Below, in pieces: positions 8,715-43,518 of a stretch of 64,000 nt of DNA. The position numbers and the translations under genes are program-made. The notes beneath the pieces are model-generated. The model had not been told where the DNA came from and searched no databases. It worked only from the letters and a program-made list of their open reading frames with translations. The stretch comes from Rugalucina vietnamica (Eukaryota; Mollusca; Bivalvia; Lucinida; Lucinidae), in the NCBI GenBank assembly GCA_964017185.1, contig OZ024883.1, positions 39,114,395 through 39,178,394 on the forward strand. Direction: 5' to 3'. Numbering within the stretch: position 1 is the stretch's first letter; each line of letters begins with the position of its first letter.

Positions 8715-8959
8715 TTAGATGTCTAGAAGACCATTCTGACACCATATATCGTGATTAGGCTGGAAATAACTGCAATTAAGCCACTTTTATGCTTCAGTTT
8801 TATTAAGCCTGAGAATCCAAATCGTGACTATTGACATGAACTCCGTAGAAGGTTCTACGAGATACCGTTACAGTAGGCTTCTTCATTATGCATTTTGTAT
8901 ATTTTTCAATCCTTCATCTCATATATGCAAGCTGAATAATCAAAAAGAGAGAAACATAT

Positions 8960-9155
8960 GAGCCGCCACATGGGAAAAACCAACAATCTACCTAGGCGAA
9001 AACAAAGGCCTTTGTTTTCACTACTTGGATGGTGCAATTCCTCTTCTACTTAAATCCGAAATTTCAAGCTTCTAGCTCTTTTCTGTGCTTGTACAGGTTG
9101 GTTTGTGTTGGACCCGTTCGGAAACCACAATGTTGGTTTTCCCACGAGGCGGCTC
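8960..9155. mobile_element. GAGCCGC palindromic MITE (shortened copy)
   Basis: Ends GAGCCGC and GCGGCTC, interior GTTGG...TTTTCCCACGAGG. The central palindrome of fuller copies (GATCAGCTTCGCGG type) is deleted here. The flanks AAACATA and TATGTTT are themselves mirror images. Confidence 0.65.
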
Positions 9156-11790: not shown

Positions 11791-11811
11791 TTATACTGAT
11801 TTTATTGACAG

Positions 11812-11914
11812 ATCATGGAGAAGAAAACTTGTGTTATTTGCGAAAAGGTTATCCGTCCTGCACAGCAGTTATTGGTCTGTCAGTGTACAAAGCATGTTCA
11901 CAGGATTTGTACGA
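11812..11914 (+). CDS. Ligase exon 1: first half of PHD finger
   Basis: The acceptor is TTTATTGACAG, followed by 3 nt of leader and then ATG at 11815. It encodes Cys6-x2-Cys9, Cys22-x-Cys24 and His29-x2-Cys32, the first six ligands of a C4HC3 PHD finger. The donor is GTAAGT at 11915 and the exon ends in phase 1. The acceptor directly before the ATG implies at least one upstream untranslated exon. Confidence 0.8.
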
Positions 11915-14900
11915 GTAAGTATTTTCTGAAGACCAAAAAAAAAATGGAGTGTCTGATGATTATTGAGCCGTGTCATGAGAAAACAAACAATTTGCATAGG
12001 CAAAAACAAAGACGCAGATCGCAGTTACCGCGAAGCTGATCAGCTCCTTTGTTTTTGCTACTCAGTACAGTCCCCCTTCTTCTTAAATCCAAAATTTCAA
12101 GCTTCAGCCATCTTGTACAGCTTGGTTTGTCTTGGACCTGTTTGAAAAACACATTGTTGGTTTTCTCATGACTCAGCTCAAATGGAGTGAGGGATAATCA
12201 GGTGATAATTATGCCCCCAACTTTGAAAAAGTTGATAGGGCATATTGCTTTGGGCTTGTCCGTGTGTCTGTGCATCCGTGTGTCCGCACTACTTTTTTCT
12301 TAACTTTTAAACAGTGGATGCTAGTGTCTTGAAATTTCATATATGGATTCCTCGTGAAAAAAAAGATGACCCGTATTTTTTTCTTTTCTGAGTTATGCCC
12401 CCTTTCTGAATTATCTCCCTTTGAAAAAAAATCTTGAAAATCTTGTGTGCAAGATATCTCAAAAAGTATTTGAGCTAGTGCTTTCATATTTGGTATGCTG
12501 ATTGGGGCCAAGGAGTAGATCACCTGATTAACTTTTGAGAACTTTTTGCCAAAATTTAACAAAATTATGGAATTTTGAAAAGTTATCAATTTTACCACTA
12601 TCAGATTTAAGTGTGCATCTGTTATCACTGTTAGTCCTCAAGTTTGCTATTTGTGCCCAGGTCAACTCTGTTTGCTTACATGATTTTCAAAAATAATGAA
12701 AAAACTGTGCCAGGTTAGTGGCAAGCATACAGTTGGGGGCATAGTGTTTTACAAACACTTATTTCTAGTTCTGCTTATTGCTTCATAAAAACTTATGTTG
12801 TAGGTACTAATTTTATAGAATTGACTCAGTTCTTTTGGGAGTTAACATTTTGAACATAGACATGCAAGCGCTGCTCCCTATTCTTGTTATGACCAAAGCT
12901 ATGTATAAAGACAAAGCCAAAACACAATGTTTTTAATGGCTGTTTGAGACAAAACAACAATAAAAAAAAAACATGTTTTTATTTGGTTAAGGCAGTTGTT
13001 GTTTTAAATCTTTTGCTCAGCCCACCATGATTTAAGTAATGGTATGAGTCAGATTTGTGCCGGACGCTGTGACAGCGTTTGTTGTATTGCTGATATTATT
13101 TGAGCCGCATCATGAGAAAATCAACAATCCAAAAGCGCAGATCAGCTTAGCAGTAACTGCGAAGCTGATCAGTGCCTTTGTTTTCACTACGGGGATAACA
13201 CAATTCCTCTACTTTCTAAATCCAAAAGTTTCAGCCTCTAGCCATCTTCTGAGCTTATACAGCTTGGTTTGTGTCAGACCAGTTTGGAAACCACATTGTT
13301 GGTTTTCTCAGACAGGAGGCGGCTCATATCGTTTACCTCTATGGTTTTGATAATTGCAGGTATGACACAGGCTGAATACAGAAAGTTAAAGAAAGGTGAG
13401 TCATTAGGCCAAACAATTATAATGTAGAAGCGCGGTAGCTCAGTGGTAGGGTTTCAGATTCGTGAGTGGGGAATCTTGATACTTGGCCCCGAGGTTATAA
13501 AACTTTTTTCAAACTCAGCTCAGCTGAGCATGAAATTTCAGCTGCTCATAAATGTTAAAATTGTCAAAATTAGAGGAAAATTCTGGTTCAAAACCAAAAA
13601 ACTAGTAATTTATCCTGCTCATAAATGTTAAAATGCTTGGCATTTTAACATTTATGAGCAGGATAAATTTTAGTCTCAGCTGAGTTGAGCATGAAAAAAG
13701 TTTTATAACCTCGGGGCCTGTTGTGTTTTGTCTTTGAGCTAATTGAAAGATCCTCTGAGTACAGTAGAGGGAGCGCGGTGGCCTAGTGGTAAAGCTTCAG
13801 ACTGGCGTCGAGAGGTCCTGTCTTCAAACTAGGGTGCTTCGTTGTGTTCTAGATCAAGTTACATTTACTCCCTTAAATTACTGGTTTACACACCCAGGAA
13901 GCTGCGGCTAACCTATCACAAACGCCAGGGCCCAGTTGTTCAAAATTAACGACATTGTTAATTAATGATTTGTCAAAATTTCGAACATGAATTTTACACA
14001 TACTATTACTTTTTGTTGATAAAATGTGAGAGTCCTTTGCCATGCAAAGGATTCTCACTTTTTATCAACAAAAAATAACAGTAAATTTGCTTATGTAGTC
14101 GGCATTTACCTAATGAGTTGAGGTCTTAACGATGACATTAAGCTAACAAAGTTTTGAACAACTGGTCCCTGGAGTAAGAAGACATGAAATCAGTGGTACA
14201 TAGTTCTCATCAAAATTTGTGTTTCCAACTGTCAAATTATAAAAGGGAAACAAATAATAGGAAAAGACCCAGGGATTTTTTTTTTGCGGGGGGGGGGGGG
14301 GGGGGGAGGGGTTGGGGCGAAGGGGTCTTAGGGCCTTTATGACTAGGAAAATGAGTGATGTAAACTCCAACTCTTAGAAATTTTCAGAATAATAAATAAT
14401 AATAATCTTTGTTGAAAGTCACTTCATATTTCAACAATCAACATAAGCTCTGTAGAGCTTTTATTGCGACTATTTTAAGAACATATGTACACTATATACA
14501 TTGATCTGTGGAAATGTGACTTGCTCAAGGCCACAACAGATGACGCCCTGGACGGGAATCGAACCAGGGACCCTTCGGAACAAAGTCTAATACGCTACCG
14601 ACTGTGCCAGCCTGCTCCATGTTCATCTACCAAGTATTATTGGTCATTTTTGTCAGGTTAAAGATCACCAGAAGGAGTGACTAGATACATGTACACTAAA
14701 GGGCGCAGTGAGAAGTATGATTAGGCTATGCAAACACGTGTACAAGTAACTAAGCTATAATGCATGAGCCGTCAATAGGTTGTTACACCGGCCACAGCTG
14801 TCTATTAGATAGCATATTTGCTTTGCAAGCAGGAGGTTGCAGGTTTGATACCTGCCTGGGCCCAGTTGTTCAAAACTTTGTTAGCATAACGCCATCGTAT

Positions 14901-15979
14901 AGATCTCAACTTGTTAAGTAAATGCAGACTACATAAGCAAGAACGCTGTTATTTTCAACGGATTCTCACATTTTTTCAACAAAAAATAACAGTGTATTTG
15001 TAATATTGCCATTTGAAATTTTAACGCATCTTAACGTCAGCATTAATTTTGAGCAACTGGTCCCTGGTATATGCAATCATTGTTATAGACTGTGCTTTAT
15101 TTTTCAGAAGAACGACTAGATGTATGGAAATGCAGTTTATGTGAAGGTAGGTATCATATGAGTTTAAAAATGTAAATAAGGGTGGTCGGGTGGGAATATG
15201 GGCCCCCGCCTATTGGGGCCTAAACTACGCTACTGGCTGATCAGCTGATAACTGGTTAACCGCTCAGAAGGTCTGAGCCTGCCCAGGAAAAGTGGTTCAA
15301 GTCAATCCATCCATGCATACATGTATAAGCCTTATTGATTAAGATAGGTGATTATTTGAAGCACTTTTTGGATGTATACTCCTGTGCCACAGATGAAAAT
15401 TGGGATGTTTTGAAATATGAAACCATGGCTAATCTAATTATGGGAGAGGGAATATCCGCTTCTAATCTAAGTTTAGACTATGCTCTTTATCTTAGCTTTA
15501 ACACTTTATCCTGTCAGCGTAGGTGTTGAAAGATCAATAACAGAACTAAACAAACCATGAACAATCCTTTTGTTTTCATCTGAGGCCCAAGAATTTTTAA
15601 CACATATAATTATATTATCAAACTTTGTTACAATGAATCAGAAAACGAAGAGATATATATAATGACAGAAATTAAAACATAAAGAAAAAAAGGCCTTTGT
15701 CATTCAGTTTGGATTTCTATGTGAGCTGCTTCATGAGAAAATATTTGTATTTATTTATTTTTTTTTGTGATCTACCATAGAGACTCACGCCAAGAGTATG
15801 CAAAAGTGGGCGGGATTTTCCCTATACTACATGTTGTACTTTTACTAGATGCTAGTAACCAAGTAGCATATAAGCTTATATGCCACTTGCAGTAACTGAT
15901 AAGCCGTAAGTCCTATAGGTGGATCAGCTCTGACACAAACTGGAAAATAAAGTGCCGATCAGTGGTTTTGTTCTTGAGA

Positions 15980-16013
<34 letters not shown>

Positions 16014-19000: not shown

Positions 19001-19341
19001 CTTTTCTGGGGGGGGGCTGACCAAATTGATTTTCAAAAAATGTGACTAAGCCAGGACATGAGAAATCTATTATCTATTATGAGAAATCTAGTATGACGTC
19101 CACAAGCAAACTGTGATGGTGTGTTATCTGGACATTAAGAGAGAAAATGGAGGGAATATCAGCTTGTTACATCGAAAACTAAAGCAATGGTGAGCAGGAC
19201 AACCAATTGGCATAGTACAAAAGTATATATACTAAACTGCAAAAGAAATGCAATATTTTGCATACATGTTGTGTTGTACGTGATCCACATAGAGAGCATA
19301 TTAAGAAGCCAAATTTTATATACATAAACAGTACAACAACT

Positions 19342-19390
<49 letters not shown>

Positions 19391-22300
19391 AAATGCAGAA
19401 AGTATGCACATGCATATGTATTGAAATTCTCAATATTGAAAAAAGGCCACCTTAATATCTTTATAGACTCGGATCAGCGTTTCATTTTGTCTGATCAGGC
19501 TGTGCATCCACTGTTTCATTTTGAAACAAAGTGGAAATCAGATATTGAAACAAACAACAATTATCTTCTTTATAAGAATTTATTGTGGCAAGCTAAATGA
19601 TTAAGAAAAAAAAGACAGACTGGCGAATATTTAGCTGAGCAGTGCAGAGCGCAAGATAAGTAAAATATTTTTGAATGTGGATATAGTTTACTGTCAGATA
19701 TTTTTACCTTTCAAAAACATACTTTTGCATTCTGAAACTACAAACTGTAATTAATGTTATGATACTGCTTTATTTTTTTTTTTATAAAATAAGTCACACT
19801 TATGAAAGAGAGTTTGTAAAATATCATGTTTGTTTGGCTTTATCAGTTGCCATTTTCATGCAGTCAAGATTCTGTTACATGGGGTATAATAAAATACATT
19901 TTAGTGGTCCTTCTTTTTCACTTTTCTGAATTTAATTTTCTGTAGTCTTTATTGGCTTATGTAGGGATTCTTTATGAGTGAAAACTTTAAATTCGCAAGG
20001 CAACAAATTCACAGATATTCACAATTAATTACACGCAATCATTTCCGAACTAACAGTAATATACTTTCAAGGGAGCATGGTGGACTGGTGGTCCACCATC
20101 AGGGTTTCGATCCCCATGTACATGGGGCGCTATGTTCTCATTAATGCAAGGCACATTAACACACTCGAGTACTGGTCAATACACAGGAAGCAATGTCTCT
20201 ATCTACTAGGACATAACTGAAAATTGTTTACTTGGGCGCTAAACCTCACAACAAACAAACAAAATGAGGCTAGTGTGAATACCCACTTTGATGGAAATAG
20301 CTGCCCACCTAGATCACCTTGCATAAAACCTTATTAAAAGGATCATTTGATATTGGTTATCTTTTTTGTTTGCTGACAGGGCCTATTCCTATTCTTGTAC
20401 CTTGCTTTTAAATACTAGACAATATTTACCTCTATGTAAGATTTCATTACACCCCCTGTACGATTATAATTGTTGCTGGCGGACTTGATTTATTTGACAA
20501 TTAAAACATTGGGTTGAGAAAACCTATCTTAAAGCTTCAGAACAGTTAGTTACAAAGCATCCTGTATAACATGAAGGCTACTATGGCACTAGGTTCATTT
20601 GATTGAGAAACCAACATATCATGGTAGCAAAAATGAAAACTCATTCTTTGCACTTGTCCCAAAAAACTTAAAAGTACACTATTATAACATTTTGTTGTTG
20701 TTGTTTTTTTTCACCCACATCTCTCTAAAGCATGCTGATAAGACAGCCAGTGTTTCAGTTTGCAAACTGAGAGAGAATACAGACTATATTTACAGCAGAC
20801 GCCTAATTCTCATGAATCTATAAATATCACAAGGTTACTTGCTTCAGTTCAGCAGAGACCTAAAGCGTGGCCTAGGAGTATGTAATGACATCCTAAAATT
20901 GATAAAAGTCCTATAAAAGGGAATCAACGTCCCGACATGACCACAGCTGTTGACTGGGACGTTAAAGCAGCAATTCAAACAAAATGCAAATAAAATATTA
21001 CTCAGTTGATTCAATATAATTCAGAAGCCTCCATGGTGCAGTGGTTAAGTCACATGCTTTGTAAACCAGGGGTCGCATGTTCGATCCCGGGCTTTTCCAG
21101 TCTGTCAGATGAGACATTAAACTGAGGCCCTGTTTCCATATGACCTTTTCTGTTGGTGGGCATTAAACTCCAAATCAATATGAGCTGTGACGCGAGAAAA
21201 CCAGTCTTCTGGGTTTCTCACCAGGTCTGACACAACCCGAGCTGTACAAGCTCAGAAGATGGCTAGAAGCTTGAAATTTTGGATTTAGGAAGAGGAGTAG
21301 TGAAAACAAAGGGGCTGAACAGAATTTAATTGCTCAGAATTATGTTTATGTGGATCTTAACAAATTTTACACATTCTCAGTTGACTATTTTAAAAACACT
21401 GTGAAGGTGCTAACTTTAAAATCAAGCAGGACATTTGTTTGTCATCCAAGGCAGGGTCCAGCAGCAGTAACTAGTGATAATGTAGCATCATCTGCTTCTT
21501 CCAGCCATAATACAATAACTGTGACCTCCAGTCATGCACCTGGTATCTTTACAAGTTCTAATATACAACAGCATGTTGTAGCATCATCCAGACTGGTAGC
21601 TATTTCCACTGTACAACAGCCAAGTTTGGAAACAGCAAGACCGATAGCTAGTTCCACTGTACAGCCAAGTGTGGTATCAGCAAGACCCATAGCTAGTTCC
21701 AGCGTACAACAGCCAACTGTAGCATCTCCCAGACCGGTAGCTAGTTCTAGCTTTCAACAGCCAAGTGTAGCATCATCCGCACAAGTAGCTAGTTCCAGTG
21801 TACAACAGTCTAGACCGGTAGCTAGTTCCAGCATACAACAGCAAACTGTAACATCAGCCAGGCTGGAACCTTGTTCAGTTCAGAGGAAAAATGTTGAGAC
21901 TATCAGCAGAGGTAAGTTCCTTTTTTTTTGTCTATTCACATGTGTTTAAAACATTTTTTTTCCCATTCAGATTGTGCTTAATCAATTTGCTGTACAAAGT
22001 TTTATCTGCATTATACATATAATATAAGAACACCAAATTGTAGGCTTTTTAGCTCACCTGAGCCGAAGGCTCACAGGTGAGCTTATAGTATACCCATGCT
22101 CCGGCGTGATCAGTAACTGATCGGCTGTGCAGTTACTGATACATGTATTCACTATTCAGTATTTACTGATCTTTACTGTGACTTTGAAAAATTTTGCATG
22201 ACTTTTTTTGTAAATTTTCTACCTCCGAATTATGAATATTATCTTGAACTCATGCAGTCTTTTACACTAAATGTTAGATTTTATAAGCAAGTAACAGATA

Positions 22301-25195: not shown

Positions 25196-25250
<55 letters not shown>

Positions 25251-34200: not shown

Positions 34201-37200
34201 CAATTTTGATTATTTCTGTACTTATGAGCAATTTAAATTTCATGCTTAGCTGAGCTGAGCAAGAAAAAAGTTTTATAACCTAGAGGCCAGCTCCTACATA
34301 AACTGGTCTGTACAACCACAAAAGGCTAGAAGCTTGAAATAGATTTAAGAAGAAGAGGGATAATACTATCTGTGTAGCAAAAATAAAGGCGCTGATCAGC
34401 TGTGTAGTTTCTGCACAATTCTGTTTAAAATTAGCTCATAATAAACCAATTAAATTTACATACGCATATGAATTCATGTTTTGTTGGTTGGGAAATATTT
34501 GTGAAAACTTTAATTGTTGCGAATTTTCCTGACTTTGTTTCTTTGCAAATTCAAAGTTCTAGCTAATAAAGACTTACTATAAGCTTCGTAGACTGCAGGA
34601 GTACTCGCTTCCGAAGTACTAAATTCCTATAATAAAAGTCACACAAAAACAAGAAGTAAACTCATTTAATAAAAGTCACTCAAAAATTCATGAATTTACA
34701 TTATTTAACTGATAATATTGAATAAGATAGAAAAATTGCCGTAAAAATGCTTTTCTGTTGTAAAACAATAATTCAGTAATATGTATATACACTTAAAGAC
34801 AAAAGCAACACAGCACTTGGTTAATCTTATGTAACTCAGAAATGGCCGATTCAAATTATCAGATGCTGTGTCAGCACATAAGATTTTAATCTGTTGTAAA
34901 AAATAACTCAGTAATTTTTGTATATAAAAGCTCTTTAGTGAACTGGAATTTGATATTACGAATGCATGTCTTGTATTGCAGCCAGTTGCCATTGGGTGTA
35001 AGACGAGAAGTATCGGTCACCCGGTAGACATCACCTCGTATACTGACCTGAAAGGTACCAACTCAGTCCATGTCCAGTGGAATCACGACAATAATAAGGT
35101 AAAACACGAAATTGTGGATTTAGAAATGAGAGGAATTGTACTATTCATGTAGCGAAAACAAAGACGCTGATCAGCTTCGCAGTGACTGCGAAGCTGATCT
35201 GCGGCTTTGTTTTCGCATAGGCAACCAGTCTTCAGGGTTTCTGACCAGGTCCGACACAAACCGGCCTGTGCAGTCACAGAAGATGGCAAGAGGCTGGAAA
35301 TTTTGGATTTAGAAAGTAGAGGAATTGTACTATCCATGTAGCGAAAACAAAGGCGCTGATCAGCTTCACAGTTACTGCGAAGCTGATCTGCGGCTTTGTT
35401 TTCGCATAGGCAACCAGTCTTCAGGGTTTCCCACCAGGTCCGACACAAAGCCGCCTGTGCAGTCACAGAAGATGGCTAGAGGCTGGAAATTTTGGATTTA
35501 GAAAGTAGAGGAATTGTACTATCCATGTAGCGAAAACAAAGGCGCTGATCAGCTTCGCAGTCACTGCGAAGCTGATCTGCGCCTTTGTTTTCGCATAGGC
35601 AAAAATCAGGTTTTCTCATGATGCGACTCATAAGGTAAAACATTACAAAAACGTGTCCATACAATACACTGAGACTTTTTCAGCTGTAAAAATTAAAAAT
35701 TTCATTGGAAAAATTTTGATATTATCCATATTTTTGCTCAGAACATTGATTGTTGGTACCCACAATCTATGTTTTGGATCAAAATTAAGAAGATTAGATA
35801 TACCTCTTTATACTGATATTTTACTATGTGAAAGTGAGATATAAGGGGGTATTCATTGCATGTACATGTTTGCATGATGATATCTCTTCATTTTAAACCA
35901 TTTTTGAGCCGCCGCATGGGAAAACCAACAATCTGATTTGGCAAAAACAAAGGCGCAGATCAGCTTCGCTGTAACTGAAGCTGATCAGCGCCTTTGTTTT
36001 TGCTACATAGATAGTACAATCCCTCTTCTACTTAAATTCAAAATTTCAAGCTTCTAGCCTGCTTCTGTGACTGTACAGGCTGGTTTGTGTCTGACCTGTC
36101 AAAAACCCAAATTGTTGATTTTCTCACGCACAGGCTCATTTATGATTTTGGTTCGATCCCGGGCTTCTCCAGTCTTAAAACTAAATGACTTATGCTGTTA
36201 AGTTGGGCATATTACACAAAATCAACCAACCAACCATTTATGACGAACTGGCTTGCCATTCATTATCATGATTGCATGAGCCTAGTGTCATTTTAAGGGG
36301 TGGACAACAAACCGACTCATAAAAAATAAACCTGGAATTATACTATATGTATTTATCTAAGAAAAATAAAGATCAGCTTAGCTTCACTTAGCTGAATATT
36401 TTGCCAGTTTTAATGTAGCACAATTTTAACATATGCTGAAATTGGTTCTCTTAATGGAAGTTGCTCATATCATATAAGATATTTCAATTTTTACAGTATC
36501 ATTTCATTTTAATCACTGTATCTTTCATCTAGCGGAATAATTATTTATAACTTTGATAATTCTTACCATATATTTTGCTTTTTCTCTGAACTAAATTATG
36601 CATTTTACAATTGTTAGACGCTAATGACCCATTAGGGTTGACGCGTCGTTAAACATCAATCAATCAATCAATTTTTACAGAGCCATTGTTTGACAATAGA
36701 GTTTGTGGAGAAGTTGACCCCAGATGATCTGATCAAAACGTTGATGTCGCGGCAGTATCAACACCCCCACCACACTAGAGATCTTAGTAAGTATTCCAAA
36801 GACCAGGATTTGCTATGTAAACGAGGATTAAAACAAAATAACCAAAAAATCTTAAATTTACCAAATATCTTAGTAATACCACTTTTAGGCAAAGCTCACA
36901 CCTGATAATGGTTATATTCATTCAACAATGTCTACTCTTTTTGAAATGTATGGTTTTTGAATAGTACTACTTGTACTTTTGGAATCTTTTATTGCCAAAG
37001 TGTAGGAGCAACTAGCAGAAAACACTTTTTTTCGGCACACACAATGGGCATTCTTTCAACAGGTATAACTCAAAATTAAACCTGGCCACGAGGTTATAAA
37101 ACTTTTTTCATGCTCAACTCAGCTGAGACTAAAATTTATCCTGCTCATAAATGTTAAAATGCCAACAATTGTTGGGATAAATTACCAGTTTTTGAGGTTT

Positions 37201-40200
37201 GAACCTGAATTTTCCATTTATTTCGACTATTTCAGCATTTATGAGCAGTTGAAATTTCATGCTCAGCTGAGCTGAGCTTGAAAAAAGTTTTATAACCTCG
37301 GGGCCAGGTGACCCCAATTTTTTATTTGCTCAATACAAAGAAAACATTCTAAAGTAGCTTCAAAATGAAAATAAGAAAATTTTATCGAGCCGTTAAAATT
37401 GTCTTTGGGGTGGGTATCATCCTTAAATCTAAATTTTCAATTTCTAGCCTGCTTCTGTGACTATACAGGCTGGTTTGTTTGGTTGATTGGGGTTTAACGT
37501 CCCACCAACAGCTAAGGTCATATGGAGATGGGACCTCGGTTTATAGTCCCATCCGACGGACTGGAGAAGCCCGGGATCGAACCTGCGACCCCTGGTTTAC
37601 AAGGCGAGTGACATATCCACTGCACCACGGAGGCTTCTACAGGCTGGTTTGTGTCAAACATGATCAGTAACCTGTGTGTCTGGCTTTCTCCTGTCACAAC
37701 TCAAATACCTCAAACGAATCAGCATTCTGACAGGAACCTATCTGCTGCCAACAAACAGACACACATTCATTGGTGGAGCAGTTGATCCGGTGTGCCGTCA
37801 TTGTTGACTTGAAGACAAAGTCTTGCTAATGTTAGAGGTGCTCATGTAAAGAAGAAGGAGAATACACAAGAAGGCGCCATGTTTCAGTTTTCAAAATTTG
37901 TTTATTTCATGTGTTTTTCAGTTAGGAAACAGTTGAAGAGTGATGATGGTGATAACGACCTATGTACAACTAATATCAAAGCCTCACTGATGTGTCCTGT
38001 AAGTTTGTGTATATGCAATATTGGCTAGAACTTGAGACTGGATGTCAGTCACATATGAGCCGCGACACGAGAAAACCGATCTACGGGATTTCCGACCAGG
38101 TCCGACACAAACCGGCCTGTACACCCACGGAAGAAAGCTAGAATCATAAAATTTTGGCTGTATGTAAAGGAGACATTGTACTATCTGAGTAGCGAAAACA
38201 AAGGCACTGATCATCTTTGCAGTTACTGCGAAGCTGATCTGCACCTTTGTTTTCGCATAGGCAAACATCTAGTTTTCTCGCGTCACGGCTCATATATACC
38301 ATCTTACACCTTATATATAGTATAATGGGTACAGGGTCAATCAATCTTGGATTTACTTTGGTCAGATTCAACCTGAGACTGTGGAATTAGCTGCCCTTGA
38401 GTGTCTGAAAAATCCCAATAGAAATACAATTGGAAAATGTTTTGACCATTCTTGTTTTACCTGTTGGTTCTCAGGTGAACGATCCAAGCTCTTTGAGCTA
38501 CTTTTTAAAGCTGTGAAAAAAATCTAAATGAAATGGACATGTTTTTGAAACAAGATTTTGGGCAGAGTGAAAGAAGTGGTTAAACAGAGTAGATCTGTTG
38601 CATCTGTACATAGGGAAATATAGTTAACAGTAAATTAATGTTTACAGTAAATGCATTTTTAGCTCACCTGAGCCGAAGGCTCACAGGTGAGCTTATAGGA
38701 TAGGCAGGCATCCGTCGTCGTCCGTCGTCCGTCGTCGTCGTCCGTCCACAATTTCAAAGGAGAATATTTCTGAAGCTAGTAGGCCGATCTTGATCAAATT
38801 TAATGTGAACCATAATTGGGTTCGGGGATTGATGGCATTAGGTTTTGGAGCAGATTGTATCAAAATTGTGGTTTCCATGGCAACAGATAGGTCCCATAGA
38901 CTTACAATGGGAAAAACTAAAAAAATCTTCTTCTCTGAAACCACTAGGCCCACAGCTTTGATATTTAGTATGTAGCAATGGCTAATGGTCCTCTACATAA
39001 ATTGTGCCATTCATGCCCCTGGGGTCAAATTTGGCCACGCCCCGGGGGTCGATAGTCTCCATAGACTTACTATGGGAAAAAAAATCAAAAATCTTCTTCT
39101 CTGAAACCACAGGGCCCACAGCTTTGATATTTGGTATGTGGCAATGGCTAATGGTCCTCTACATAAATTGTGCCAGCCATGCCCCTGGGGTCAAATTTGG
39201 CCACGCCCCGGGGGTCGATAGTCTCCATAGACTTACAATTGGAAAAACTTAAAAAAATCTTCTTCTCTGAAACCACTAGGCCCACAGCTTTGATATTTGG
39301 TATGTAGCAATGGCTAATGGTCCTCTACATAAATTATGCCATTCATGCCCCTGGTGTCAAATTTGGCCACGTCCCGGGGGTTGATAGTCTCCATAGACTT
39401 ACTATGGGAAAAAATTAAAAAATCTTCTTCTCTGAAACCACTAGGCCCACAGCTTTGATATTTGGTATGTAGCAATGGCTAATGGTCCTCTACATAAATT
39501 GTGCCAATCATGCCCCTGGGGTCAAATTTGGCCACGCCCCGGGGGTCGATAGTCTCCATAGACCTACAATAGGAAAAAAACTAAAAAAATCTTCTTCTCT
39601 GAAACCACCAGGCCAACAGCTTTGATATTTGGTATGTTGCAATGGCTCATGGTCCTCTACATAAATTATGCCATTCATGCCCCTGGGGTCAAATTTGGCC
39701 ACGCCCCGGGGGTTGATAGTCTCCATAGACTTGCTATGGGAAAAAAATAAAAAAATCTTCTTCTCTGAAACCACAGGGCCCACAGCTTTGATATTTTGTA
39801 TGTGGCAATGGCTAATGGTCCTCTACATAAATTGTGCCAATCATGTCCCCGGGGTCAAATTTGGCCACGCCCCGGGGGTTGATAGTCTCCATAGACCTAC
39901 AATAGGAAAAACTAAAAAAATCTTCTTCTCTGAAACCACTAGGCCCACAGCTTTGATATTTGGTATGTAGCAATTGCTAATGGTCCTCTACACAAATTGT
40001 GCCATTCATGCCCCTGGGGTCAAATTTGGCCACGCCCCGGGGGTTGATAGTCTCCATAGACTTACAATGGGAAAAAAAATAAAAAATCTTCTTCTCTGAA
40101 ACCACTAGGCCTACAGCTTTGATATTTGGTATGTAGCAATGGCTAATGGTCCTCTACATAAATTGTTCCATTCATGCCCCTGGGGTCAAATTTGGCCAGG

Positions 40201-43200
40201 CCCCAGAGGTTGATAGTCTCAATAGACTTGCTATGGGAAAAAAATCAAAAATCTTCTTCTTTGAAACAACAGGGCACACAGTTTTGATATTTTGTATGTG
40301 GCAATGGCTAATAGTCCTCTACATAAATTGTGCCAGCCATGCCCCTGGGGTCAAATTTGGCCACGCCCCGGGGGTAGATAGTCTCCATAGACTTACAATG
40401 GGAAAAACTAACAAAAATCTTCTTCTCTGAAACCAAAAGGCCCAGAGCTTCTATATTTTGTATGTAGCAATGTTTTGTAGTCCCCATTATAAATTGTGCC
40501 AGTCATGCCCCTGGGTCAAATTTGGCCATGCCCCGGGGGTCAATAGTGTCCATGCATAGACTTTCATTGGTCGATTCTCAATTAGTTTAAATCTCATGAG
40601 CTTACAATGTGATAATCTCTCAGGTGAGCTACAGGACCAATGGTCCTCTAGTTACAATTAATGCATGTTTACAGTAAGTGCATGTTTACAATTAGTGCAT
40701 GTTAACAGTAAATGCATGTTTACAATTAGTGCATGTTAACAGTAAATGCATGTTTACAGTAAATTCATGATTGTAATTTCATTCTAGATTGGTAAAGGAA
40801 GGATGACTTATCCGTGTGTGGGGAGTGACTGTAACCATGTACAGTGTGTGGATGCAATGACTGTTTTACAGATGAACAAGAACAAAGCAGCCTGGAAATG
40901 TCTCATCTGTTCTAAGCCTATACCGTTTGACGAACTTAGGATAAATGGGTAAGAAGCATCAGTTGACAGGTGCTGTTTTTCAAGCCTTACTGGGAAAGTT
41001 CATTTGTCACAAATGCGCTAAGGTTATAGATTAAGACAATGGTAAAAGACCTGAAATTCCCTTCTATAAATTCAAATTCAGGGATAAGTATACTCAACAA
41101 GACTTCTCAGGCTATAGGGATATGAGCCGCGTCATGAGAAAACCGGATTTTTGCCTATGCGAAAACAAAGACGCAGATCAGCTTCGCAGTTACTGAAGCT
41201 GATCAGCGCCTTTGTTTTCGCTACACGGATAGTTCAATTTCTCTTCTTCTCAAATCCGAAATTTCAAGCTTCTAGCCTGTTTCTTTGACTGTACAGACCG
41301 GTTTATGTCAGACCTGGTTGGAAACCCCGAAGACCGGTTTTCTTGCGCCGCGGCTCATTATATGATATGCTCAATTATTACATGTTATCAGGTTTTCATT
41401 ATAACACAGCCATAAAACAAAATCCCAAAATGACCTGTAATGTGTTCATTTAAGGAACCTCATTCTAACACTTATATCACTGTCTATTTCTTTGGACCTC
41501 AATGATAGCATTACTATGAGATTGACCTATATCAAATGAGCCGCATCATGAGAAACCAGATTTTTGCCTATGCCTTTGTTTTCGCTACTCTGATAGAACA
41601 ATTTCTCTTCTTCCTAAATCCGAAATTTCAAGCTTCTAGCCATCTTTTTGTACAGCTCGGTTTGTGTCAGACCTGGTCAGAAACCCTAAAAACTGGTTTT
41701 CTCACGTCGCGTCTGAAATGAAAAACACCCCCATGCAATATACAGATTTTCTTCAGCTATAAAAATTTAGAGTTTTCAGTTGAAAAATTGTCATTTTCTT
41801 ATAAATGCTGATAGCATAGATTGTGATACACATTTGAAGATGAGACGGCTCTGACATGTACCCACAATCTAGGTTTTGGATCAAAAATGAGAAAAAAAAT
41901 GTATACCCCTGTAACCTGTTTTACTATACAAAAATAGCGTGTAAGTGGGTATTTATTAGATGTTTGTGTTATGTTGCAGATATTTCATGGAGGTTCTGAG
42001 CAATATTAAAGATGATGTTACAGAAGTGGAATTAGACTGTGAAGGCAACTGGAAGATACCCACGCCTGAAAAGGAAAAAGAGAATGGTCGGTATCTTAAA
42101 ATACTGAGCCGTTGTATGAGCCGCATCATGAGAAAACCAGCAATGTAGTTTTTGAACAGGTCTGACACAAATCGAGATGTACAAGCACAGAAGATGGCTA
42201 GAGGCTGGTAATTTTAGATTTAGAAAGTAGATGAATTGTCTTCCCGAGTAGCGAAAAAAAAGGCGCTGATCAGCTTCGCAGTTACTGCGAAGCTGATCTG
42301 TGCCTTTGTTTTCGCATATACAAAACATTGGTTTTCCAGTGAAATGGTGTATCTCTTCAGGATAGTACATCCGTAAAATGTACCCCCCCCCCCCTACACC
42401 TTAGACTAGCAGTTAGTGCGTCTGAATGACACACCAGAAGTGTAAGCTCCATCCTGACATGACTAACTATTGTTGAGTGGGACATTAAACAACAACAAAA
42501 TCTGAAATGGGAGTTTTAGGATAGTGATAAAGCATTTTGAAGATTTATGCTCCTAACTTTAAATAAGAATGGGAAAAAATTTACTTTTTGTTGAAATGAT
42601 TTATTATGCCCCCAAGTTGGAAGGGCAGATTGCCTTTGGCTCGTCTGTGTGGGTGTGCGTTAGTCACACTTTCATTAAAATTGAAACTTTTAAAGGATAT
42701 ATTCTAGGTTAAGTTTAATTTACATATTGCTCATGAAAAAATAATTGACATGTCAGAGTTATGCCCCTTCTTTGAAATATGCGGCTTTGAAAGTCAATTT
42801 TCAGTGAAAATGATCATATAAACTGTGCCATTTTAGGGCCAAGCATATGGTTGGGGGCACCGTGTTTTACAAACACATATCTGTAGTTTTTGTTTCATTT
42901 TCAGATGATGCCGTAGACACATTATGCGAGTCCATGACCGCCATCGATCTAACAGAATCTGACAATGAAGAAAATACACCTGTGTCTCCTGTCAAGCTGG
43001 TCAATGCTCCCCTCTCTGGCAAACTTGTGCGAGGATCTGACAAAGTTGCTCCCCTTGGGGACAATACTGGTCTTCTTAATAGGGCTAGTCATTTAGTGGA
43101 TTCTGTCACGTCGATCGTTCGGTCTGTCATAGGCACCAGCTACAATCAGACCACGTTGACTAACACTCATCGCAACAATAATCACTCGAGAAACCACAAC

Positions 43201-43518
43201 CAGAGGCCATATGAAAGAAATTGGAATGGAAACAGGCATCACTTGTCAAACTGGAATAGAAACTCTCCACGAAGAAACAACCGCACAAACTCGCCACGAA
43301 GGAACTTTAACTCTCCACGGAGAAATTTCAATAATCGTCCCTATAACAGCAATGCCAGGAACTGGTTTGACTATAACTCGAGTCGGGGTAACACTGGTTA
43401 CTCTTCATGGAATAACCATCACTCCAACGGGAACAATAACTACAATCAGTCAGGGTATAGGAATTACAGGACCAACACTTACAATTTGAACTACAACACT
43501 TATACCAGTAATTACTAG
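11815..43518 (+). CDS. PIAS/SIZ-like SUMO E3 ligase with N-terminal PHD finger (14-exon model)
   Basis: The predicted protein transfers SUMO from the E2 Ubc9 to nuclear substrates; this role is inferred from the family. Coding exons: 11815-11914, 13360-13395, 15108-15146, 21381-21911, 28495-28620, 29124-29214, 30979-31014, 33921-34008, 34982-35098, 36681-36786, 37922-37998, 40788-40948, 41980-42086, 42905-43518. Every internal boundary is AG/GT, all phases agree, and the total is 2,229 nt (742 aa). PHD is residues 6-57, Ser/Val/Gln repeats about 95-230, PINIT-type about 250-430, SP-RING about 448-500, SUMO-interacting motif 552-561, and an Asn/Arg/Tyr-rich tail from about 627. No SAP domain is visible; it could lie in an unseen upstream exon, since exon 1 opens only 3 nt after its acceptor. 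PINIT to SP-RING colinearity with animal PIAS is strong. The link from the PHD exons through exon 4 rests on phase and absence of stops, so it is less certain. Confidence 0.85.
11966..12175. mobile_element. GAGCCGC palindromic MITE
   Basis: GAGCCGTGTCATGAGAAAAC to TTTTCTCATGACTCAGCTC in ligase intron 1, with the central GATCGCAG...GCGAAGCTGATC palindrome. Confidence 0.65.
12209..12769. mobile_element. TTATGCCCCCAA repeat
   Basis: It begins TTATGCCCCCAACTTTG and ends GTTGGGGGCATAGTG followed by TTTTACAAACAC. Non-coding, in ligase intron 1. A shorter relative abuts exon 14 at 42600. Confidence 0.6.
13102..13331. mobile_element. GAGCCGC palindromic MITE next to exon 2
   Basis: GAGCCGCATCATGAGAAAAT to GGAGGCGGCTC, with the central AGCTTAGCAGTAACTGCGAA palindrome. 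It ends about 29 bp before exon 2. Confidence 0.65.
13360..13395 (+). CDS. Ligase exon 2: PHD middle helix
   Basis: A 36-nt microexon between acceptor TAATTGCAG and donor GTGAGT, phase 1 in and out. It encodes MTQAEYRKLKK, the helical stretch seen before the last Cys pair in many invertebrate PHD fingers. A palindromic MITE ends only about 30 bp upstream. Confidence 0.8.
13431..13770 (+). mobile_element. tRNA-like SINE interrupted by a GGCCCCGAGG MITE
   Basis: GCGCGGTAGCTCAGTGGTAG at 13433 resembles a tRNA A box. The MITE at 13484-13721 (ends GGCCCCGAGGTTATAAAAC, arms around AGCTCAGCTGAG) splits it. SINE-like GTTGTGTTTTGTC continues after 13722. Confidence 0.5.
13773..13924 (+). mobile_element. 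tRNA-derived SINE
   Basis: GGGAGCGCGGTGGCCTAGTG gives a tRNA-like A box and CCTGTCTTCAAACTAGG a degraded B box. The body includes GTGTTCTAGATCAAG and CCCAGGAAGCTG. Not a functional tRNA. Confidence 0.55.
13925..14171. mobile_element. CAGGGCCCAGTTGTTC palindromic MITE
   Basis: Ends CCAGGGCCCAGTTGTTCAAA and TTTTGAACAACTGGTCCCTG, with inner inverted arms around AGAGTCCTTTGCCATGCAAA. Relatives are at 14862 and 32894. Confidence 0.65.
14388..14618 (-). mobile_element. tRNA-derived SINE with AAT-repeat tail
   Basis: Read on the minus strand: GGAGCAGGCTGGCACAGTCG (A box) and GGTTCGATTCCCG (B box), body, then a TTATTATT tail lying at 14388-14410 on the + strand. A G-run of about 19 lies upstream at 14288. 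Confidence 0.6.
14862..15069. mobile_element. CAGGGCCCAGTTGTTC palindromic MITE beside exon 3
   Basis: CTGGGCCCAGTTGTTCAAAA to GAGCAACTGGTCCCTGG. It ends 38 bp before ligase exon 3. A tRNA-like stretch with GCAGGTTTGATACCTGC precedes it. Confidence 0.6.
15108..15146 (+). CDS. Ligase exon 3: end of PHD finger
   Basis: A 39-nt exon with acceptor TATTTTTCAG and donor GTAGGT, phase 1 in and out. It encodes ERLDVWKCSLCE: the Trp two residues before the Cys54-x2-Cys57 pair is a PHD hallmark and completes the C4HC3 set. A MITE ends about 39 bp upstream of the acceptor. Confidence 0.8.
15147..16195. other. Intron 3 start, no recognised element
   Basis: AT-rich sequence with a run of about 30 A at 15982-16012. 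A short frame at 15335-15529 has no known domain. Nothing else recognisable. Confidence 0.5.
16196..18857 (-). mobile_element. AGCTCACC-type long repeat (reverse), with inserted TIR element
   Basis: On the minus strand it starts TTTTAGCTCACATGAGCC (from about 18857) and ends CAGGTGAGC then AGGACCATTGGTCC (16196). Internal modules of about 400 bp repeat CAGAGAAGAAGATTTTTGAA, GGTCAAGGTCATCACAGGG and CCCCGGGGTGGGGG. The 16974-18105 element splits it. Confidence 0.65.
16974..18105. mobile_element. TIR element inserted in an AGCTCACC-type repeat
   Basis: Ends are CAGGGATCTC and its near inverse GAGATCTCTG. CTTCAT flanks both sides and the host repeat continues across the gap (GATGCTTCAT...CTTCATGCCAAG). 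Subterminal runs repeat AGGAGTCCC on the left and GGACGCC or GTCC on the right. It is probably a hAT-type non-autonomous element, but only 6 bp of duplication is visible. Confidence 0.55.
18858..20065. other. Intron 3, simple repeats only
   Basis: A T-run of about 43 at 19344-19386 is the main feature. No coding or mobile signature recognised. Confidence 0.5.
20068..20275 (+). mobile_element. tRNA-derived SINE
   Basis: GGGAGCATGGTGGACTGGTG then GGGTTTCGATCCCC (B box), body with CCAGGAAGCAATGTCTC type sequence, ending in CAACAAACAAACAAA. Confidence 0.55.
20276..21022. other. Intron 3, no recognised element
   Basis: No gene, repeat or regulatory signature recognised. A SINE-tail-like CATGACCACAGCTGTTGACT then GGGACGTTAAAGCAGCAATT occurs near 20935-20975. 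Confidence 0.45.
21027..21180 (+). mobile_element. tRNA-derived SINE (GCCTCC type)
   Basis: AAGCCTCCATGGTGCAGTGG (A box), GTTCGATCCCGGGCTT (B box), then a body ending GGTGGGCATTAAACTCC. The same family is at 37479 (minus), with pieces near 36155 and 43560. Confidence 0.65.
21183..21330. mobile_element. GAGCCGC MITE, 5' half
   Basis: GAGCTGTGACGCGAGAAAAC to AGTGAAAACAAAGG, truncated at the central palindrome. It lies about 50 bp before exon 4. Confidence 0.6.
21381..21911 (+). CDS. Ligase exon 4: Ser/Val/Gln tandem peptide repeat linker
   Basis: A 531-nt exon. The acceptor TTTTACACATTCTCAG was chosen because it is the only good AG found that gives phase 1 in the open frame; the donor is GTAAGT at 21912. 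It encodes a linker with degenerate 13-15-residue repeats around the core RPxASSSVQQPxVAS, so it is probably disordered. From 21481 the exon lies inside the duplicated block, so copies of its 3' part recur at 23242 and 25550. The 5' boundary is the least certain in the model. A single-base difference makes Cys here where copies 2 and 3 have Ser. Confidence 0.65.
21481..25003 (+). repeat. Tandem duplication of about 1.76 kb, containing exon 4
   Basis: Copy 1 is 21481-23241 and copy 2 is 23242-25003, offset 1761 bp and almost identical by eye. Each holds the 3' part of exon 4 with its GTAAGT donor, a truncated AGCTCACC repeat, a GAGCCGC MITE (22467-22697, 24229-24459) and a second AGCTCACC fragment. 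The native exon-4 acceptor lies outside the unit, so copy 2 has a donor without its own acceptor. Confidence 0.85.
23242..23672 (+). pseudogene. Duplicated exon 4, copy 2 (acceptor lost)
   Basis: The frame encoding the ASSSVQQ repeats is open through to the GTAAGT donor at 23673. It lacks sequence upstream of 21481 and so the normal acceptor. Best in-frame AGs give phase 2, which would not join phase-1 donors in frame. One Arg codon is changed to Gly (CCCGGACCGG). Confidence 0.6.
25199..25549 (-). mobile_element. LINE 3' end with (TAA)n tail
   Basis: The minus strand encodes SGSKIWNSIPENIKQSDS followed by LFKKRYREWL and a stop at 25386-25384. This is the usual C-terminus of non-LTR ORF2 (WNxLPxxI...FKxxLKxxL). 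The 3' UTR follows and ends in an ATT-type repeat tail (25199-25248 on the + strand). It is 5'-truncated exactly where duplicated exon-4 sequence begins at 25550. Confidence 0.75.
25550..26135 (+). repeat. Third partial copy of the exon-4 block
   Basis: It matches from TGACCTCCAGTCATGCACC through the exon-4 repeats and donor (25938) into the AGCTCACC repeat, then diverges after GCTCCGGCGT. It shares two base differences from copy 1 with copy 2. The peptide frame is open. Its left edge is the LINE 5' truncation point. Confidence 0.8.
26078..27837 (+). mobile_element. AGCTCACC-type long repeat, full copy
   Basis: Starts TTTTAGCTCACCTGAGCC, ends CAGGTGAGCG then AGGACCATTGGTCCTCTGG. It contains about four modules of 400-450 bp, each with CAAGATGGCCGCCATGGCTA and CTTCTTCTCCAGAACCAG. 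No coding frame. Confidence 0.7.
27838..28494. other. Intron 4 end, no recognised element
   Basis: Low-complexity and unique sequence. The only recognisable text is CACTCGGCTTTTTATATGC and CCCACCCCTCGGTTTATGG, echoed in reverse near 29570-29790, so a dispersed repeat is likely. Confidence 0.4.
28495..28620 (+). CDS. Ligase exon 5: start of PINIT-type domain
   Basis: 126 nt, acceptor TTTTGTTCCAG, donor GTATGT, phase 1 in and out. It encodes residues 236-277, including LPVVEMVPWPFHKVIKHLMP, which resembles the LPFYDVL...L segment opening the PINIT region of animal PIAS proteins. Confidence 0.8.
28652..28888. mobile_element. GAGCCGC palindromic MITE
   Basis: GAGCTGCGACATGAG to CTCATGACGCAGCTC in ligase intron 5. 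AAT flanks both sides. Confidence 0.65.
29124..29214 (+). CDS. Ligase exon 6: PINIT-type domain
   Basis: 91 nt, acceptor GTTGAATTTCCAG, donor GTAGGT, phase 1 in and 2 out. It encodes residues 278-308 with THFFSLGTAERNLYNSK. A partial copy of its acceptor and first 26 nt lies 76 bp upstream at 29048. Confidence 0.8.
29272..29508. mobile_element. GAGCCGC palindromic MITE
   Basis: GAGCCGCGACGCGAGAAAAC to TTCTCATGACGCGGCTC in intron 6, with the central GCTTTGCAGTTACTGCGAAG palindrome. Confidence 0.7.
30009..30928 (+). mobile_element. AGCTCACC-type repeat nested in a GAGCCGC MITE
   Basis: It starts TTAGCTCACCTGAGCG and ends AGGTGAGCGTTTACAGGACC. The MITE body precedes it (29876-30008, CTACATGGATAGTAC...GCAGATTG) and its end resumes after it (TTGGTTTTCTCATGC, 30930-30953), showing insertion order. 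Confidence 0.65.
30979..31014 (+). CDS. Ligase exon 7: PINIT-type domain microexon
   Basis: 36 nt, acceptor TTTGTTTCAG, donor GTAAAC, phase 2 in and out. It encodes RHVAEKLYQVIL, leading into the RFC motif formed with exon 8. It corresponds to the strand before RFC in PIAS proteins (VQVQLRFC). Confidence 0.75.
31160..31400. mobile_element. TGCAATATACAG palindromic MITE
   Basis: CCATGCAATATACAG, then CATAGATTGTGGGTAC and its inverse around GAACCGCCTCAGGGAGGCGG, ending GGGGTATACATTACAGG. Relatives are at 35650-35880, 41728-41965 and 59643-59862. Confidence 0.6.
31795..32018. mobile_element. GGCCCCGAGG-type MITE (diverged)
   Basis: Arms TTTCATGCTC...CAGCTGAGCA and CTCGGCCGAGTTGAGCATG around TTATCCTGC and AATGCCAACCATTGTTGGCA. 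Outer ends are decayed. Confidence 0.5.
32140..32371. mobile_element. GAGCCGC palindromic MITE
   Basis: GAGCTGCGCCATGAGAAAAA to CGGTTTTCTCACGTCACG, with central GATCAGCTGTGCAGTAGCTG palindrome. Confidence 0.6.
32500..32734. mobile_element. GAGCCGC palindromic MITE
   Basis: TGAGCTGCCTCATGGGAAAA to CCCACGAGGCGGCTCA, flanked by TA on both sides. The peptides it encodes on either strand are by-products. Confidence 0.7.
32894..33131. mobile_element. CAGGGCCCAGTTGTTC palindromic MITE
   Basis: CTCTGGGCCCTGTTGTTCAA to TTGAACAACTGGGCCCAGAG, perfectly mirrored at the tips, with inner arms around AATCCTTTGCATTG. Confidence 0.7.
33157..33340. mobile_element. TTCAACCTCATTATA MITE
   Basis: Starts ACAGTTCAACCTCATTATAT and ends with the near inverse ATTACAATGAGGTTGTACTG. 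Inner motifs TATAACACGG and TTTTAACACGG. A partial relative is at 41380-41530. Confidence 0.55.
33335..33555 (+). repeat. Minisatellite of about 26 bp built from a MITE end
   Basis: Roughly eight units of AATATAATGAGGTTGTACTG plus TACAC, directly continuing the right end of the neighbouring MITE. Long minus-strand frames here are translation of the array. Confidence 0.75.
33643..33878. mobile_element. GAGCCGC palindromic MITE before exon 8
   Basis: GAGCCGCGTCACAAGAAAAC to TTTTCTGGTGTAGTGGCTC, with central GATCAGCCGTGCAGTTACTG palindrome. Ends about 42 bp before exon 8. Confidence 0.65.
33921..34008 (+). CDS. Ligase exon 8: PINIT core with RFC and DxFP motifs
   Basis: 88 nt, acceptor GCATTTTCAG, donor GTGAGA, phase 2 in and 0 out. 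It encodes RFCIEDKSTYQTDDFP followed by CVRVNNK. The pattern RFC-x-D-x-S-x-Q-D-x-FP-x-VxVN is diagnostic for the PINIT domain, which contacts substrates in PIAS and Siz ligases. Confidence 0.9.
34024..34440. mobile_element. GAGCCGC MITE with GGCCCCGAGG MITE nested in it
   Basis: The outer MITE starts GAGCAACGACGAGAGAAGAC and resumes at 34290 (CTCCTACATAAACTGGTC...GCTGATCAGCTGTG). The inner element 34045-34288 has ends GGTCCCGAGGTTATAAAG and CTTTTTTC arms, with AATGCCAACAATTGTTGGCA at its centre. Confidence 0.6.
34982..35098 (+). CDS. Ligase exon 9: PINIT signature
   Basis: 117 nt, acceptor TTGTATTGCAG, donor GTAAAA, phase 0 in and out. It encodes residues 350-388. The segment HPVDIT at 362-367 stands where human PIAS has RPINIT, so the name-giving motif is degenerate. 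The Val-Gln-Trp at the end matches the ITVTW strand of PIAS. Confidence 0.85.
35100..35632. repeat. Three tandem GAGCCGC MITE bodies
   Basis: The module ATTTAGAAAGTAGAGGAATT...GCTGATCTGCG...CCAGGTCCGACACAAA is repeated about every 178 bp (near 35110, 35310, 35490), ending CTCATGATGCGACTC. The 127-codon minus frame over it is a by-product. Confidence 0.65.
35650..35880. mobile_element. TGCAATATACAG-type MITE (diverged)
   Basis: CCATACAATACACTGAGAC, GCTCAGAACATTGATTG and its inverse, ending GGGGTATTCATTGCATG. Confidence 0.5.
35907..36147. mobile_element. GAGCCGC palindromic MITE
   Basis: GAGCCGCCGCATGGGAAAAC to TTTTCTCACGCACAGGCTC in intron 9. A short SINE piece (GGTTCGATCCCGGGCTTC) follows at 36155. 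Confidence 0.65.
36681..36786 (+). CDS. Ligase exon 10: PINIT to SP-RING linker
   Basis: 106 nt, donor GTAAGT, phase 0 in and 1 out. It encodes residues 389-423 with FVEKLTPDDLIKTLMSR, matching the YLVRQLTSSELLQRLK helix of PIAS. The acceptor ATTTTTACAG directly follows a CAATCAAT tail that looks like the 3' end of a SINE. Confidence 0.85.
37084..37306. mobile_element. GGCCCCGAGG palindromic MITE
   Basis: CCTGGCCACGAGGTTATAAA to TTTATAACCTCGGGGCCAGG with AACTCAGCTGAG arms. In intron 10. Confidence 0.65.
37479..37637 (-). mobile_element. tRNA-derived SINE with 15-bp target duplication
   Basis: On the minus strand: GAAGCCTCCGTGGTGCAGTG (A box), GCAGGTTCGATCCCGGGC (B box), tail GGTGGGACGTTAAACCCC. 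TACAGGCTGGTTTGT flanks both sides (37464-37478, 37638-37652). It landed in a GAGCCGC MITE, pieces of which lie at 37440-37463 and 37653-37703. Confidence 0.85.
37922..37998 (+). CDS. Ligase exon 11: entry to SP-RING
   Basis: 77 nt, acceptor TGTGTTTTTCAG, donor GTAAGT, phase 1 in and 0 out. It ends in IKASLMCP, matching VRVSLxCP of PIAS; Cys448 is the first conserved Cys of the SP-RING. Confidence 0.85.
38056..38293. mobile_element. GAGCCGC palindromic MITE
   Basis: TGAGCCGCGACACGAGAAAA to TTTTCTCGCGTCACGGCTCA with TA on both sides, 57 bp after exon 11. Confidence 0.7.
38664..40653 (+). mobile_element. AGCTCACC-type repeat with 166-bp tandem array
   Basis: Starts TTTTTAGCTCACCTGAGCC and ends CAGGTGAGCTACAGGACCAA. 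Between lie about ten to eleven units of 165-167 bp, each with CCCCTGGGGTCAAATTTGGC and CTTCTTCTCTGAAACCAC. It sits within a minisatellite of TGCATGTTTACAGTAAA (38625-38660 and 40660-40770). It fills most of the intron before the SP-RING exon. Confidence 0.8.
40788..40948 (+). CDS. Ligase exon 12: SP-RING (MIZ) zinc finger
   Basis: 161 nt, acceptor TTCATTCTAG, donor GTAAGA, phase 0 in and 2 out. Visible residues are Cys459, Cys464, His466, Cys469, then Trp485, Cys487 and Cys490, with LQMNKNK and KPIPFDEL in the family positions. All conserved ligands are present, so an active SUMO ligase fold docking Ubc9 is expected. It lies just after a 2-kb array-bearing element that fills most of the preceding intron. 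Confidence 0.95.
41122..41357. mobile_element. GAGCCGC palindromic MITE
   Basis: GAGCCGCGTCATGAGAAAAC to TTTTCTTGCGCCGCGGCTC in intron 12. Confidence 0.7.
41537..41715. mobile_element. GAGCCGC MITE, internally deleted
   Basis: GAGCCGCATCATGAGAAACC, then TTTTTGCCTATGCCTTTG where the central palindrome is missing, to TTTTCTCACGTCGCGTC. Confidence 0.6.
41728..41965. mobile_element. TGCAATATACAG-type MITE beside exon 13
   Basis: CCCATGCAATATACAG, CATAGATTGTGATACAC and its partial inverse, ending GTAAGTGGGTATTTATTAG. It ends about 15-18 bp before exon 13. Confidence 0.55.
41980..42086 (+). CDS. Ligase exon 13: SP-RING C-terminal helix and strand
   Basis: 107 nt, acceptor GTTATGTTGCAG, phase 2 in and 1 out. 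It encodes YFMEVLSN and a GNWK segment, matching GLFMEIL and GTW in PIAS after the RING. The donor is a weak GTCGGT, chosen because it fits the phase of exon 14. Confidence 0.8.
42117..42345. mobile_element. GAGCCGC palindromic MITE
   Basis: TGAGCCGCATCATGAGAAAA to ACATTGGTTTTCCAGTG, about 30 bp after exon 13. Confidence 0.6.
42395..42499 (+). mobile_element. Degraded tRNA-derived SINE
   Basis: CTAGCAGTTAGTGCGTCTGA is A-box-like; the tail TTGAGTGGGACATTAAACAA with CAACAACAAAA is SINE-type. Confidence 0.45.
42600..42885. mobile_element. TTATGCCCCCAA repeat abutting exon 14
   Basis: TTATGCCCCCAAGTTGG to GGTTGGGGGCACCGTG and TTTTACAAACACATATCTG. It ends about 20 bp before the exon 14 boundary. 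Confidence 0.6.
42905..43518 (+). CDS. Ligase exon 14: SUMO-interacting motif, Asn/Arg/Tyr-rich tail, stop
   Basis: Acceptor TTTCATTTTCAG, stop TAG at 43516. It encodes residues 539-742. AIDLTESDNEE at 551-561 is a SUMO-interacting motif (hydrophobic core followed by acids), placed after the SP-RING as in PIAS (VIDLT-acidic). From about residue 627 the sequence is rich in Asn, Arg, Tyr, Ser and His, with repeated NSPRRN units near 659-680, and resembles prion-like RNA-binding tails. The upstream ATG at 42847 lies in the intron and is not the start. Confidence 0.88.

Follow-up and report, generated by a model that had tools for sequence, protein, structure and literature searches.

A predicted PIAS-family SUMO ligase led by a Pygopus/LINE-type PHD finger in the bivalve Rugalucina vietnamica

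The window, a 64,000-nucleotide stretch of the genome of the lucinid bivalve Rugalucina vietnamica, in good probability carries a duplicated protein-coding gene for a SUMO E3 ligase of the PIAS family, in which no SAP domain was found and a PHD finger of the Pygopus/LINE type stands first. The gene is constituted of 14 exons on the + strand between 11,815 and 43,518 (Table 1), separated by 13 GT-AG introns. As proposed in the initial annotation, the splice phases match and 742 codons are read in a single frame, the sole stop being codon 743. From its N-terminus, the predicted protein is composed of the PHD finger, a linker rich in Ser, Val and Gln, a PINIT domain, an SP-RING and a tail rich in Asn (44/204 residues) and Arg (21/204). 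An acceptor-like CAG located at 11,809-11,811, directly 5' of exon 1, suggests an additional 5' exon. At the other end, the nearest AATAAA/ATTAAA hexamer 3' of the stop is 2.1 kb away, which counts against the gene model.

Table 1. Exons of the predicted ligase gene and truncated copies of exon 4 (positions in the window)
Feature	Position	Strand	Content
Exon 1	11815..11914	+	Residues 1-33, with start codon and the first six of eight PHD ligands
Exon 2	13360..13395	+	PHD loop, residues 34-45; counterpart in C12 duplicate
Exon 3	15108..15146	+	Last PHD ligands, WKCSLC, residues 46-58; counterpart in C12 duplicate
Exon 4	21381..21911	+	Ser/Val/Gln-rich linker, residues 59-235, without Met
Exon 4 copy 2, truncated	23237..23672	+	1.76-kb tandem duplication; without original acceptor
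Exon 4 copy 3, truncated	25547..25939	+	Without original acceptor
Exon 5	28495..28620	+	PINIT region begins; join seen in C11 retrocopies
Exon 6	29124..29214	+	PINIT; join seen in C11 retrocopies
Exon 7	30979..31014	+	PINIT; join seen in C11 retrocopies
Exon 8	33921..34008	+	PINIT (RFC, DDFP); following intron common to ordinary PIAS gene
Exon 9	34982..35098	+	PINIT (HPVDIT); following intron common to ordinary PIAS gene
Exon 10	36681..36786	+	PINIT end; following intron common to ordinary PIAS gene
Exon 11	37922..37998	+	SP-RING start (SLMCP); following intron common to ordinary PIAS gene
Exon 12	40788..40948	+	SP-RING zinc ligands C-x-H ... C-x-x-C
Exon 13	41980..42086	+	SP-RING C-terminal part (DVTEVELDCEGNWK)
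Exon 14	42905..43518	+	IDLTESDNEE, presumably SIM-like; Asn/Arg-rich tail; stop TAG

The ligase core was identified by both of its domains. The PINIT domain, first recognized from RFC, DxFP and HPVDIT, scores 47.6 bits against a Pfam cut-off of 27 (E 2.9e-12), and the zf-MIZ model reaches 56.2 bits against 33.5 (E 3e-15). The SP-RING has its full set of ligands, as had been read from the letters, with C-x-H and C-x-x-C aligned with those of PIAS2/3 and Siz1/2. The best PDB matches of the core are PIAS3 (2.7e-44) and PIAS2 (1e-43), followed by yeast SIZ2 (1.6e-29) and SIZ1 (6.2e-22). Over 201 common columns, identity amounts to 36.8% with human PIAS3, 35.3% with human PIAS2, 30.8% with yeast Siz2 and 28.4% with yeast Siz1, human PIAS3 and PIAS2 being 78.6% identical over the same columns. 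At the 49 columns where the two human PIAS agree, the two yeast Siz agree and the groups differ, the core shows the PIAS state 18 times, the Siz state seven times and neither 24 times.

The genome searched (1.09 billion bases, 47 contigs) also includes an ordinary PIAS gene on contig C8 near 39.32 Mb, with four exon rows 53-74% identical to human PIAS3 and an SP-RING exon represented by two rows that run into intron (34 and 44%). The introns E8/E9, E9/E10, E10/E11, E11/E12 and E12/E13 stand at the same place and in the same phase in both genes, i.e., all five that are comparable, as read by eye and, for E12/E13, from the donor side only. From the PDB ranking, the identities and this intron agreement, the ligase core is therefore, at the sequence level, a divergent PIAS paralogue. 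No relatives of it were detected in viral and bacterial contig collections. A zf-MIZ search of the genome, with 150 of 159 candidates scored, returned at least ten places, nine of them above cut-off. Another PIAS-like SP-RING is located on C8 near 35.81 Mb, and a pair of zf-MIZ rows at G000:C3:56,056,763-56,057,512, one of them under cut-off, is perhaps an additional SP-RING gene.

The window protein has PINIT and SP-RING in common with animal PIAS1-4 and the pearl oyster PmPIAS, its comparable introns agree in place and phase with those of the genome's own PIAS, and the SIM-like IDLT is presumably common to it and animal PIAS as well. It differs from PIAS1-4 by the divergence of its core from human PIAS3, by its Asn/Arg-rich tail and by a PHD in place of a SAP, which was not found. 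PmPIAS is reported to have SAP, PINIT, RLD, AD and S/T regions (PMC7960669), so that an S/T-rich region there contrasts with the Asn/Arg-rich tail here.

The claim of a complete C4HC3 PHD finger over exons 1-3 was borne out, as all eight ligands are present (C6, C9, C22, C24, H29, C32, C54, C57). The finger is nevertheless unusual in the C-x-C spacing of its second cysteine pair (C22, C24), and its Pfam PHD score is under the gathering cut-off of 24 bits, at 21.9 for the 58-residue piece and 12.4 (E 0.17) for the full protein. Searched against the PDB with phmmer, it matches Pygopus at 5.1e-7 across the finger, exon 1 alone reaching just 0.046. An AlphaFold2 model of the finger was uninformative (pLDDT 49.5). 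Because chance alone could also build a finger out of three short exons, a control was run in which exon 1 was held fixed and the target was set after the Pygopus match was already known. In the real 9.1-kb region, the chain of exons 2 and 3 ranks first of 35 two-exon chains with a score of 35. None of 200 first-order Markov sequences reaches this score (maximum 30; 95 of them yielded no chain at all), nor does any of 60 sequences in a stricter run.

A second full gene is located on contig C12 (about 29,997,903-30,043,136). It keeps all 14 exons in order, on one strand and in phase over 45 kb, with an open frame of 717 residues. This frame holds if exon 4 ends at the donor GTTAGA, which was positioned by homology and is weaker than GTAAGT. 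About 12.9 kb of both loci chain in order at 89.5%. Exon 1 and its 20-nt flanks are identical at 140/140 nucleotides, and the PHD at 58/58 residues with one silent and no replacement change. This identity may come from local conversion instead of selection, since the absence of replacements accompanies only one silent change. Identical residues number 180/188 in PINIT, 112/115 in the SP-RING and 196/204 in the tail, and 121 of 152 aligned codons in the linker. Across PINIT plus SP-RING, dN/dS is as low as 0.13, and in the linker (exon 4) it rises to 0.82. Judged on both loci, the architecture is real and present in two genes of this genome. Upstream of exon 1, blocks between 7,283 and 10,032 (for example 7,283-7,515, 8,872-9,362 and 9,661-9,869) are 93-98% identical to sequence upstream of the C12 gene and are perhaps 5' exons or control sequence.

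Besides this duplicate, contig C11 carries two intronless copies (L003 and L004, at 20.107 and 20.114 Mb) that are 6.8 kb apart and truncated at both the 5' and 3' ends. Each includes all ten joins from E4/E5 to E13/E14, both lack the 30 nt directly after E5/E6, and in-frame stops are present. They look like one retrotransposed mRNA that was duplicated later. Because they begin within exon 4, they document how the ligase part is spliced and carry no information on E3/E4. The join of PHD to ligase is thus a predicted one, which the C12 duplicate and the open frame make very likely.

That exons 1-3 form a small PHD-only gene, adjacent to a PIAS paralogue starting at an undetected exon, is quite improbable. 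The intron between exons 3 and 4 is indeed 6.2 kb long, the spliced C11 copies stop short of the E3/E4 join, and eleven AATAAA/ATTAAA hexamers lie in between, although chance in AT-rich DNA would yield as much. Two separate genes would, however, have to account for the order, strand and phase retained in the C12 duplicate, for every join from exon 1 to exon 5 being in phase 1, and for an exon 4 devoid of Met, the first Met after the PHD being residue 240 in exon 5.

Other copies of the gene are partial. Two copies of exon 12 (L006 and L007, C15:37.126 and 37.149 Mb) are separated by 22 kb, and no further exon of the gene was found within the 80 kb scanned. In the window, exon 4 and its downstream sequence are duplicated in tandem almost unchanged at 21,480-26,270, with a 1.76-kb step and a partial third copy, and these copies could be either genuine or an assembly effect. 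A fast and triplicated exon 4, the stops in the C11 retrocopies and the isolated exon 12 copies on C15 would suit a decaying pair of recent ligase duplicates under relaxed constraint, perhaps non-functional. Such decay has little chance of being the right account, as both full genes are open from start to stop and their core is constrained. A duplicated, protein-coding ligase gene is still the preferred reading.

The nearest relatives of the finger are found in Pygopus and in LINE-type frames. Among 17 PDB matches at E up to 10, Pygopus supplies nine, including all of the top nine, and SIZ1 none. In pairwise comparisons against shuffles, which took in seven of 18 fetched genomic fingers (L030-L047), Pygo1 reaches a z of 16.9, six LINE-type fingers lie at 11.8-15.9, one other ORF is at 13.3 and a PHF20 piece at 1.9. 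SIZ1 PHD pieces from Arabidopsis and rice, which as used missed the first ligand, give -0.2 and 0.6, i.e., not above background. A tree of 13 PHD sequences was rejected as a guide to origin, with supports of 36-66 at the relevant nodes and SIZ1, on a branch of length 4, set among LINE fingers at support 36.

Over 100 Pygopus/LINE-type fingers are present in the genome. With human Pygo1 as query (150 of 1,103 candidates scored), the genome's own Pygopus was retrieved at 57% as a separate gene on C8 near 9.86 Mb, together with at least 149 further rows at E <0.001, many in frames of 1,000-1,300 residues. Searched with the window finger (150 of 393 candidates scored), the genome returned at least 145 rows with E no higher than 10. 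Two strong ones are the window gene and the C12 duplicate, and six more among those listed are at E <0.01; the remaining rows are weak, with 26-42% identity, and 26 of them belong to 1,234-residue open frames. The fingers L030-L047 are of one type and stand in long intronless frames, with a 2A-like NPGP just 5' of the finger in 14 of 18. In the sole LINE frame scanned, the PHD is above cut-off and endonuclease matches (1.3e-5 and 3.7e-5) are slightly below theirs. From this layout, we take frames with NPGP, PHD and endonuclease to be CR1-like LINEs.

The window finger scores 42.4 bits with both the best LINE finger (41.5% identity over 53 residues) and human Pygo1 (its top PDB hit, with 39% identity across 54 residues), and 32.3 bits with the genome's own Pygopus (29.6%). 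It does not retain the EVND motif, Y341, W366 and E360 of Pygopus. LINE-type fingers for their part are intronless, have a C-x-x-C spacing and, in five of six compared, a W at the pocket-divider, whereas the window finger is interrupted by two introns. One LINE group (L043, L044, L045 and L047) shows an H at this position, like the window finger. Since the finger is equally near to LINE fingers and human Pygo1, nearer to both than to the own Pygopus, and one LINE group has the same H, the evidence leans to the LINE finger pool of the genome as the likeliest source from which the PHD would have been gained.

The combination of a PHD with PINIT and SP-RING is otherwise that of plant SIZ1, for which a SAP and a PHD that recognizes H3K4me3 are described (PMC6954211). 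Inheritance of the PHD from an ancestor common with SIZ1, with loss in other animals, could draw on this co-occurrence, on the depth of the core (36.8% to human PIAS3, 30.8% to yeast Siz2) and on a LINE finger of the same type that reaches rice SIZ1 weakly in the PDB (E 0.4), far below Pygopus in first place (3.4e-8). It is nonetheless hardly credible. Indeed, the window finger is not placed between SAP and PINIT as a SIZ1-type PHD would be but stands first in a protein where no SAP was found, SIZ1 is absent from its PDB matches, and the SIZ1 pieces, which show no alignment above background, contrast with the z of 11.8-16.9 for Pygopus and LINE fingers. Because of these values, an independent gain is the better fit. 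Of the two origins proposed in the initial annotation, ancient retention of a SIZ1-type PHD is thus not supported, and convergent gain, from the Pygopus/LINE type, is favoured.

Reading of chromatin marks by the ligase had also been proposed. In the literature, Y341, D352 and W366 are cage residues of Pygo1 and E360 mutants bind at background level (PMC2726290), whereas in Pygopus W to E abolishes histone binding and, in the fly protein, W to F weakens H3 binding, which persists (PMC3851687). In the window finger, Y341, D352 and W366 correspond to K4, P15 and H27, and E360 to Q23, the positions being counted by hand and Y341/K4 lying just beyond the printed alignment. As Y, D and W are replaced by K, P and H, the sequence does not support H3K4me reading. 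Reading of some other mark is possible by analogy with the W to F fly Pygopus that still binds weakly. Should the protein be produced, the finger would, with reasonable probability, serve for docking without reading H3K4me, and this is the reading preferred here.

No significant SAP match was obtained in the window with SAP queries, used without a positive control (lowest E 0.19 with tblastn and 0.52 with phmmer); the search did not reach the N-terminus of the ordinary PIAS. Two weak matches on the gene strand lie upstream, at 8,298-8,363 (E 0.19) and 3,430-3,549 (E 0.37), and both are unmatched in the 12.9 kb upstream of the C12 gene. An additional 5' exon could encode a SAP. Within this scope, the description as a PIAS-like ligase led by a PHD is supported.

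Structures of Siz1 and PIAS proteins show SUMO-loaded Ubc9 and the substrate held by SP-RING and PINIT. By analogy, these two domains of the window protein are predicted to do the same, SUMO then being transferred from Ubc9, while the IDLT motif would hold SUMO. The PHD would take over from the SAP in anchoring the ligase to chromatin or to a partner protein, by another route than the usual H3K4me cage.

A more specific scenario, tentative and on balance unlikely, is that a SAP-less PIAS captured the PHD of a CR1-like LINE, that introns were gained and the H3K4me cage lost, and that the finger steers SUMO to partners shared with LINEs. The host would thereby turn a retrotransposon-derived piece into a means of marking the complexes of retrotransposons or their chromatin. 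Capture is the better supported step of this scenario, and steering is speculation. The SUMO pathway is tied to transposon silencing in animals, and the gene may represent the recruitment of a LINE domain into this pathway.

No animal PIAS with a PHD appeared in the literature found, which consisted of titles and beginnings of abstracts and left preprints and most subscription papers outside its scope. The pairing of a PHD with a SUMO ligase is known in plants; a PIAS-like animal ligase with a Pygopus/LINE-type PHD is a new, predicted form. If the joined protein is made, a PHD and a SUMO ligase were brought together on two or more occasions, with PHDs of different types, and such recurrence suggests a benefit from the coupling as such.

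In the rest of the window, Rfam and tRNA scans gave no match, and Pfam found nothing above cut-off in ten ORFs outside the gene. Two tandem arrays are nested in introns, one at 26,174-27,776 (unit of about 455 bp, 3.6 copies) and the other at 38,886-40,553 (unit of about 331 bp, five copies). A foldback repeat whose arms resemble AAACAAAGGCGC(A/T)GATCAGC accounts for 44 arm matches between 11,549 and 56,642, where none are expected. By our own count, these arms form 19 facing pairs, 15 of which are inside the PHD-PIAS gene.
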